DNA of 64,000 nt from positions 288,124 to 352,123 of the forward strand of contig NZ_BAAADV010000003.1 of the NCBI RefSeq assembly GCF_039522665.1, in the 5' to 3' direction. Every line of letters begins with the position of its first letter. Position 1 is the stretch's first letter. The DNA is from Natronoarchaeum mannanilyticum (GTDB taxonomy: Archaea > Halobacteriota > Halobacteria > Halobacteriales > Natronoarchaeaceae). Shown here one piece after another: positions 1,257 through 63,725 of the stretch. The notes beneath the pieces are model-generated. The model was not told where the DNA came from, did not search any database, and saw nothing but the letters and a program-made list of their open reading frames with translations. Both the position numbers and the translations under genes were made by a program.

Positions 1257-1331
1257 GGGTTTGTGGTCTAGTCTGGTTATGACACCTCCTTGACATGGAG
1301 GAGGCCGGCAGTTCAAATCTGCCCAAACCCA
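1257..1331 (+). tRNA. tRNA-Val (anticodon GAC)
   Basis: The 7-bp acceptor stem is GGGTTTG (1257-1263) with CAAACCC (1324-1330) and discriminator A1331. The anticodon stem CCTCC/GGAGG (1285-1289, 1297-1301) closes the 7-base loop TTGACAT, giving anticodon GAC at 1292-1294. The T arm is GGCAG/CTGCC around TTCAAAT (1307-1323). CCA is not encoded after the discriminator, and no intron is visible. A TTTT run at 1333-1336 could end transcription. The last 21 bases recur downstream with one mismatch. Confidence 0.97.
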
Positions 1332-60218: not shown

Positions 60219-60590
60219 TCAAGGCCGCGTCGTCGCCCACACCGCCACGACGCCGAGGAACAGCGCCGGAAGTAGCGGGAACACGATCAGCGTCGGAATG
60301 TACGGCAGTTGGGGCGGGCGCAGGTACGTGACGATCGGCGCCACGACGAACGAAAAGAAGATGACGCCGACGAGCGTCCAGCCGCGCCAGTCGAACTCGC
60401 GGTCGGCGTCGTCCGGGTGGGGTCGATCGGCAGCGTCGCCGGACTCCGCGCCGTCCTCGACCCGCTCGCCGTCGGCGTTGAACGCGGACGGATCGTGGGT
60501 GTACGCGTCGCTCGACGATCCGGCGGCGTCCCGCGCGTCAGCATCGCCCACCGATCCGGCGTCGCCCGCGCCGTCTCCCTCAGAGTTCAC
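60219..60590 (-). CDS. Hypothetical membrane protein (123 aa)
   Basis: The 123-residue protein has a hydrophilic Asp/Ala/Gly-rich start of about 60 residues (GDADARDAAGSSSDAYTHDP) and two membrane segments (TLVGVIFFSFVVAPIVTYLR and IVFPLLPALFLGVVAVWATT). I do not recognise the family. It starts at a GTG and overlaps the end of the upstream dehydrogenase gene by 11 bases, so it is probably co-transcribed with it. The downstream side is the palindromic element. Confidence 0.65.
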   Translation of the reverse strand: MNSEGDGAGDAGSVGDADARDAAGSSSDAYTHDPSAFNADGERVEDGAESGDAADRPHPDDADREFDWRGWTLVGVIFFSFVVAPIVTYLRPPQLPYIPTLIVFPLLPALFLGVVAVWATTRP

Positions 60591-61671
60591 TGTCGGGTCT
60601 TACGACCACTTTGCCAAAGCCCTCACGGTTCTCCAGTAGCTCGTGAGCCCTGGCCGTCTCGCTCATCGGCAGCGTCTCGCGGATCCGCACCTCGAAGGTG
60701 CCGTCCCAGACGCGTTCGAGAACGTCGTCGATCTCGCCGGGCGTCGCCATCGTCGAGCCGAGCACGCTGAGCTGGTTCCAGAAGATGCGGTTGATGTTGG
60801 TCTCGGGCGCGTGGCCCGTCGTCGCGCCGCAGGTGACCAGCCGGCCGCCCTTCGCGAGGCTGGCCAGCGAGTCGGACCACGTGTCGGCGCCGACGTGGTC
60901 GACGACGACGTCGACGCCGTCGTCAGAACGCCTGCGTTCTGACGGCCCATCAGACGTAGTCTGATGACCGCGCTTCCCGGTGATGGCGCGGATCTCGTCG
61001 GCGAAGTCGTCTTCCTCGTAGTTGATCGCCGCCTCGGCGCCGAGTTCCTCGGCGTACCGGCACTTCTCGTCGGAGCCGCCGGTCGCGTACACCGTCGCGC
61101 CGGCGTAGTCGGCGATCTGGACCGCGGCGTGGCCGACGCCGCCGCTGGCCCCGAGCACGAGCACCGTCTCGCCCGGCTCGACGTCGGCGCGCGTCATCAG
61201 CATGCGCCAAGCGGTCTGGAAGACGAGCGGCGCGGCCGCCGCGGTCTCCCAGTCGACGCCCTCGGGCACCGCGACCAGAGTCTCCTCGGGGATCGCCGCG
61301 AGTTCGGAGTGGACGCCGCGAACGTGCTCGCCGACGATGTGGTAGTTGACGCACTGGGGCTCTTCGCCGTGGCGGCAGTACTCGCACTCGCCGCAGTACC
61401 GGCCCGCCGTGAGCGCGACCCGATCGCCCGGTTCGAACCGCGAGACGTGCTCGCCGACAGCCTCGACGACGCCGGCGCCGTCGCTGCCCGGAACGTGGGG
61501 CATCTCCAGGTCCAGCCCCGGCATCCCGCGGCGCGTCCAGACGTCGAGGTGGTTGAGCGCGCCCGCCTTCACGTCGACGAGCACGTCGTCGGCGCCGATC
61601 TCCGGGTCGGGGAACTCGCCGTACTCGACGACGTCGGTACCGCCGTGGTCGGTGAATTTGACTGCGTCCAT
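60580..61671 (-). CDS. Zinc-lobe alcohol dehydrogenase / quinone oxidoreductase-like (MDR) protein
   Basis: The 363-residue MDR enzyme has the structural zinc lobe CGECEYCRHGEEPQC (CX2CX2CX7C, 93-107) and a Rossmann motif GASGGVGHAAV near 174-184. The catalytic zinc ligands look lost: the usual GHE reads GSD and the first Cys region reads NHLDVW. So it is an NAD(P)H-dependent oxidoreductase whose active centre may not use catalytic zinc. Residues 236-251 are an insertion encoded by a 48-base double hairpin. The gene overlaps the next by 11 bases. Confidence 0.86.
   Translation of the reverse strand: MDAVKFTDHGGTDVVEYGEFPDPEIGADDVLVDVKAGALNHLDVWTRRGMPGLDLEMPHVPGSDGAGVVEAVGEHVSRFEPGDRVALTAGRYCGECEYCRHGEEPQCVNYHIVGEHVRGVHSELAAIPEETLVAVPEGVDWETAAAAPLVFQTAWRMLMTRADVEPGETVLVLGASGGVGHAAVQIADYAGATVYATGGSDEKCRYAEELGAEAAINYEEDDFADEIRAITGKRGHQTTSDGPSERRRSDDGVDVVVDHVGADTWSDSLASLAKGGRLVTCGATTGHAPETNINRIFWNQLSVLGSTMATPGEIDDVLERVWDGTFEVRIRETLPMSETARAHELLENREGFGKVVVRPDSEL
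60919..60966. repeat. In-frame 48-base palindromic insertion inside the dehydrogenase gene
   Basis: CGTCAGAACG/CGTTCTGACG (60921-60930, 60935-60944; loop CCTG) and CATCAGAC/GTCTGATG (60948-60955, 60959-60966; loop GTA) form two adjacent perfect hairpins. The 48 bases code for HQTTSDGPSERRRSDD between TGKRG and GVDVVVDH, where family members are expected to run on directly. Frame is kept and there is no stop. Confidence 0.8.
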
Positions 61672-62750: not shown

Positions 62751-63725
62751 ATGACAAGCGCGGAAAGCAACGATCGCGTCATGTCAGAGCGCACCCGACG
62801 TTCGGTGCTGAAAGCCGCAGGCGCATCGCTTGCCGCGACGACCGTCGCCGCGGGCGTCGGCGCAGCGACGTCCGACAGCGGGTGGACGGTGGCCGAATCC
62901 CCCGTCGACGGAACCCTCCACGACGTGCAGTACACCGCGCGCGACGCCCACGCGGTGGGCGGCGGCGGGGTCGTGATCCGCCGGACTGACGAGGGGTGGC
63001 GCAAGCTGCTCGACGGCGGCCCCACCGGCAACGGGAACAACCTCTACGGCGCGGCCGCGACCGACGACGGGAAGCGCCTCTGGTTCGTCGGTTCCAGCGG
63101 CGCGATCGGCGAGTACGACGTCGAGACGGGCAACCTCGAGGACCGCTCGGCTCCGATGGACGTCACGAACAACTTCAACGACGTCGCGGTCGTCGGATCG
63201 GCCGGCGACGCCGAGGTGTACGTCGCCGGCGACTCGGGCAAGATCTACTACAGTTTCGCGAACGGCGAGGAGGGCACCTGGGACTACGTCACGCCCGGGA
63301 GCGGGTCGGCCCTCCCCGCGATCGAGACGTTCGGCGCGCGCTCGGCCCACGCCATCGACACGAACGGGCGCGTGTTCGAGACGACCGACGGCGTCACCTG
63401 GGAACCGATCGGCATCGAGGACGCCGACGTCACGTTCTACGGGCTCGACAGCGACGGGCGCGACGACGTGACCGTCAGCGGCGGCAACGCCAGCGTGTTC
63501 GAGTGGAACGGCTCACAGTGGACCCCCGAGAGCCTCGGCGACGCCGACCTGCTGGACGTCGAGACCGAGGACGGCGACGGCGTCGCGGTCGGCGGCGGCG
63601 GAACGATCTTCGAGCGGGCCGGCGGGCGCTGGTCGCAGGTCGACACGCCGACCGGCGCGAACCTGAAGGCGGGCGCCGGAGACGACCTCGCGGTCGGAGC
63701 CAGCGGCATCGTGCTGGAGCGGTGA
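62751..63725 (+). CDS. Tat-exported beta-propeller-like protein
   Basis: The 324-residue protein has a Tat signal (SERTRRSVLKAAGASLAATT, residues 12-31) and a possible AGVGAAT cleavage region. The rest repeats beta-strand units of about 40 residues such as LYGAAATDDGKRLWFVGSSG, AEVYVAGDSGKIYYSFANGE and VAVGGGGTIFERAGGRWSQV, as in YCF48-like and WD40-like beta-propellers. It probably sits outside the cell; the function is unknown. The ATG at 62751 is used; MSERTRR at 62781 would give a more typical N-region. Confidence 0.82.
   Translation: MTSAESNDRVMSERTRRSVLKAAGASLAATTVAAGVGAATSDSGWTVAESPVDGTLHDVQYTARDAHAVGGGGVVIRRTDEGWRKLLDGGPTGNGNNLYGAAATDDGKRLWFVGSSGAIGEYDVETGNLEDRSAPMDVTNNFNDVAVVGSAGDAEVYVAGDSGKIYYSFANGEEGTWDYVTPGSGSALPAIETFGARSAHAIDTNGRVFETTDGVTWEPIGIEDADVTFYGLDSDGRDDVTVSGGNASVFEWNGSQWTPESLGDADLLDVETEDGDGVAVGGGGTIFERAGGRWSQVDTPTGANLKAGAGDDLAVGASGIVLER

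Follow-up and report, generated by a model that had tools for sequence, protein, structure and literature searches.

How does a stretch of DNA made of two hairpins come to lie in the middle of an enzyme gene without breaking its reading frame, and is it an isolated accident? The question arose in a 64,000-nucleotide stretch of the Natronoarchaeum mannanilyticum genome (assembly GCF_039522665.1, contig NZ_BAAADV010000003.1, positions 288,124 to 352,123), hereafter the window, in which a preliminary description had noted a 48-base, in-frame module of two perfect hairpins within an MDR enzyme gene. Both hairpins are present and perfect, and neither is expected by chance. For hairpin A, 0 of 100 shuffles had a match at up to 3 mismatches, and for hairpin B the mean was 0.14 matches at up to 3 mismatches. 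The region folds with z = -4.0 as single-stranded DNA and -3.95 as RNA. The features of the locus are collected in Table 1.

Table 1. Features of the MDR gene, the double-hairpin module and other noted genes of the window.
Feature	Coordinates in window	Strand	Details
Zinc-type MDR dehydrogenase gene	60580-61671	-	363 aa; ADH_N + ADH_zinc_N (PF08240, PF00107); closest PDB sequence 2eih_A aligns end to end with a gap at the insert
Double-hairpin module	60920-60967	-	48 nt, TCATCAGACTACGTCTGATGGGCCGTCAGAACGCAGGCGTTCTGACGA (coding strand); covariance-model match 76.4 bits, E 4.8e-19 in the window (this copy was in the training set)
Hairpin 1	60949-60965	-	ATCAGAC-TAC-GTCTGAT; the conserved half of the family (RTCAGACTNCGTCTGAY)
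8-bp stem	60948-60966		Perfect
Linker	60945-60948	-	GGGC, between the hairpins; conserved at most sites
Hairpin 2	60921-60944	-	CGTCAGAACGC-AG-GCGTTCTGACG; the variable half, palindromic in most copies
10-bp stem	60922-60943		Perfect
Upstream copy (in coding direction) of the direct repeat	60968-60970	-	CGG, 3 nt
Downstream copy (in coding direction) of the direct repeat	60917-60919	-	CGG, 3 nt
Insertion target, with the module inside it	60910-60977	-	GGAAGCG-CGG-CGTCGAC; nearly the same target in trpB (GAGCG-CGG-CGTCGAC; site L203) and the NAD-kinase-like gene (site L216)
Propeller-like gene	62751-63725	+	Uninterrupted in the window
tRNA gene	1257-1331	+	The only Rfam match in the window

Comparison with relatives showed that the module is an insertion. 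On the coding strand the gene reads AAGCG-CGG-[TCATCAGACTACGTCTGATGGGCCGTCAGAACGCAGGCGTTCTGACGA]-CGG-CGTCGAC, whereas the orthologue from the same genus, whose protein is 93% identical, has the empty site AAGCG-CGG. The net insertion is therefore 51 nt (17 codons) rather than 48, with the 48 bases of the preliminary description (placed there at 60919-60966, one base off) being the module itself and the remaining three a repeated CGG. The frame is kept and no stop is introduced. All 52 orthologues tabulated in 59 genomes, as well as 31 other aligned sequences, lack the insertion, and so its residues are not ordinary in homologues.

The module is also not unique. Its exact sequence is single-copy in its own genome, with one weaker relative in another gene, that for the nitrite/sulfite reductase, at the same place as in the congener. 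However, a search for the terminal motif found a second copy in another family, with hairpin 1 identical and hairpin 2 different but still palindromic. Hairpin 1 plus GGGC then matched about 95 sites in 69 of 293 genomes of the order Halobacteriales with up to 3 mismatches, against one match for the reversed pattern. A strong second hairpin follows at 76 of 92 sites, compared with 4 of 1840 shuffled and 7 of 365 neighboring windows. In an alignment of 26 copies, 96% of pair cells are standard pairs, with 73 two-sided and 4 one-sided changes; these copies were chosen for clean hairpins, which inflates the percentage, but the compensation is real. A covariance model built on the family matched 87 of 117 sampled genomes of the order, with up to 25 matches per genome, although only 48 candidates per genome were scored. 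In a draw of 120 genomes from the phylum, all 13 positives belong to the same order. Viral contigs gave no exact match to either hairpin pattern.

We scored the reading frame of each flank independently with a haloarchaeal codon model, and 44 of 164 sites had clearly coding flanks on both sides. All 44 keep strand and frame, in 32 distinct flank clusters, and in silico deletion of one or two bases was detected at every one of them, so the test is not biased to zero. Frame conservation is partly intrinsic in the 45-nt subtype, and the sites are not fully independent, as the acetyl-CoA synthetase (ACS), valS, and some TnpB copies look inherited or co-transferred. Ten hosts were identified by Pfam and the others by our reading of the sequence, and they include valS, purC, birA, a nitrite/sulfite reductase, formate dehydrogenase alpha, SAM hydroxide adenosyltransferase, an NAD-kinase-like protein, an epimerase, thiI, trpE, gatD (at two different positions), ABC transporters, acetyl-CoA synthetases, and S9 peptidases. 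Two further full-length examples are named merA in plasmid records of Halorubrum trapanicum (WP_096396473.1, DDVDERSSSAHQTQSDDVD) and Halomarina, where the gene with its insert is annotated as an intact reductase of about 500 aa. The neighboring propeller-like gene, while uninterrupted in the window, carries an antisense 45-nt module in its orthologues from two relatives (FYG[VVSRSVTAHQTESDD]VDSD).

Copies elsewhere are not so constrained, and lengths of 46, 52, 58, and 61 nt were found among them. Nine IS1341-type TnpB copies in one genome carry the same 46-nt frame-shifting module near their C-terminus, apparently multiplied with the transposon, and many TnpB copies carry 52 nt. At the 3' end of a gene with a dnaK-like C-terminus (VDADFEDV), a 58-61-nt module supplies a new acidic tail and stop, with a second hairpin that varies between species with both arms changing together.

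Other observations are consistent with translation of the in-frame inserts, although this remains an inference. Hairpin 1 read in its common frames gives QTxSD on either strand. The loop TAC, common in the family, would create a TAG stop in the usual antisense frame, and antisense coding copies almost never have it (about 1 of 29, against 51 of ~115 in other copies). The MDR gene outside the insert is under purifying selection, with a dN/dS of 0.11 against the congener. AlphaFold gives the predicted fold a mean pLDDT of 89, with only residues 234-249 forming a stretch below 50, between helix 223-235 and strand 253-258, which supports the surface-loop location proposed in the preliminary description. 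In Rossmann folds this end of the sheet generally lies opposite the cofactor, and so tolerance of the insert is plausible.

How the module arrived is suggested by its edges. At 45 distinct sites, the CGN triplet is identical at both edges in 36 (binomial P about 8e-10 for an assumed chance match of 0.35), and the flanks form an imperfect palindrome, TCGA.CG-CGN-CGTCGA, around it. Nine sites lack an identical triplet, and CG is common in these genomes. Empty sites in MDR, trpB, and the propeller-like gene are consistent with a duplication of three bases. A symmetric target centered on a short duplication is what a DDE-type integrase would be expected to leave. No transposase or autonomous parent was found, although candidate parents were not systematically sought. 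Several copies, including those in ACS (six genomes of three families) and valS (two genomes), are shared between genera with hairpins partly decayed but frame kept, as expected if the DNA structure matters for movement and only the frame matters afterwards.

We therefore consider it very likely that this is one copy of a small, non-autonomous mobile palindrome of haloarchaea, in which two DNA hairpins joined by GGGC (about 42-48 nt) inserted into a palindromic CG-rich target with duplication of three bases. Movement by an unidentified trans-acting transposase is inferred, and mobility itself is inferred from distribution and site structure rather than from strains of one species with and without a copy. 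Because many copies add a multiple of three bases (45, 48, 51), and their palindromes can be read without stops in favorable frames of either strand, insertions into genes are often survivable. Those that persist are in frame and code for a hydrophilic acidic peptide of about 15-17 residues ([RH]QTTSDG.SER..SDD, or VDERSSSARQTESDD on the other strand). In the window, the insert lengthens a predicted surface loop of an MDR enzyme that is probably still functional, its neutrality for the enzyme being inferred. More tentatively, gene interiors may be a normal niche for the element rather than an accident, its length steps and its readability in either orientation giving acidic disordered loops that suit haloarchaeal proteins.

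The preliminary description had likened the module to the palindromic elements that enter Rickettsia genes, and this comparison is supported. Rickettsia palindromic elements (RPEs; Ogata et al. 2000 and 2002, reviewed in PMC10969869) are likewise small palindromes inserted in frame in many unrelated protein genes, encoding a conserved peptide and apparently tolerated. RPEs, however, are about 100-150 bp and bacterial, from one genus, while the insertion unit here is 45-61 nt including the repeat (mostly 45-52), occurs across an archaeal order in both orientations with a 3-nt repeat at a palindromic target, and has one hairpin of freely varying sequence. GTAG- and CGTC-tagged REPs (PMC3733652) also form hairpin dimers within genes, encoding 20-30 aa, and the CGTC class has no dedicated transposase. 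A CGTC or CGGTC motif also borders hairpin 1 here, with CGTC directly preceding it mainly in the 45-nt subtype, but the 7-bp stem, 3-nt loop, and GGGC differ from the 8-9 bp, 4-5 nt, and CCA of those REPs, and no word beginning with "Halo" occurs in the main text of that paper. The preliminary description knew of no haloarchaeal equivalent, yet very short palindromic mobile elements without transposases, PATEs and small mobile repeats (SMRs), are known from Haloquadratum (PMC3119063). Some are as short as 52-80 bp, with palindromes or inverted repeats, and they are often tied to IS605-type transposons. PATEs and SMRs (the latter 80-110 bp with terminal inverted repeats) cause no target duplication, and in-frame carriage in host genes is not part of the description we consulted. 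In a broad sense the module fits a MITE, as a short element with inverted repeats and an apparent target duplication but no transposase gene. Protein-coding palindromes have been treated as a peculiarity of Rickettsia (Ogata et al.), and we found no description of this haloarchaeal system in the open-access papers searched, which did not extend to subscription literature. If mobility is correctly inferred, annotators should be aware that such 15-17-residue inserts in haloarchaeal proteins are mobile-DNA scars.

Among the alternatives, the least unlikely is that the module is a degenerate end of an IS200/IS605 (IS1341-type) element, a terminal-only PATE moved as single-stranded DNA by a Y1 transposase. 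Haloquadratum has terminal-only PATEs of 52 bp with palindromes, and many copies lie in IS1341-type TnpB genes. Within TnpB, however, the module interrupts the coding sequence at three separate places (before RuvC-I, after DRDANA, and near the C-terminus) rather than forming the ends of the element. The 3-nt target repeat also conflicts with IS605/PATE insertion, which makes no duplication, and the hairpins are terminal, without the 20-50 bp described beyond PATE palindromes.

A functional RNA element, such as a processing or stability signal that happens to lie in coding regions, appears still less probable. The strong paired structure with compensatory changes would suit it, as would the copy at the 3' end of the dnaK-like gene, where second-hairpin changes are matched on both arms across genera. 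Nevertheless, the rarity of one-sided changes, albeit among clean copies, fits DNA palindromes, and the module is present in scattered unrelated genes and absent from the orthologues tested. The hairpins decay in shared ACS copies while the frame stays, and the module has no Rfam match.

It is similarly doubtful that the insert is removed or skipped during expression, by RNA splicing or ribosome bypass. Four contexts keep frame but contain a stop inside the module while the flanking gene is otherwise intact: trpB at the same position in two families (sites L199 and L203, counted once per flank cluster), an aldo/keto reductase between FFD and TANVYS (site L306), and an unnamed protein (sites L207 and L223, the latter judged by eye because it fell just under the clarity threshold). 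The trpB at L203 also has a second, different insert of about 20 aa (VRKTPEESSAAHQKPEVSED). Both genomes with an interrupted trpB have a second trpB, making simple loss of function possible, and these contexts may be recent gene losses. Removal or bypass is not excluded for them, but skipping would not require a multiple of three and does not explain frame conservation elsewhere, nor the avoidance of the stop-forming loop by antisense copies. On reading the sequence, without computation, we saw no room for a bulge-helix-bulge motif.

Ordinary loop-length variation or a local duplication with chance palindromy, although the insert does lie in a predicted loop, is contradicted by the recurrence of the same hairpin and GGGC linker in unrelated genes and genera, with shuffled and reversed controls near zero.

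Histidine kinases at three sites (L157, L158, and L183) carry tandem palindromic inserts with repeated NAVEHGST...VHQTESDAAHQ peptides at the ATPase N-box, possibly a related multi-hairpin system.
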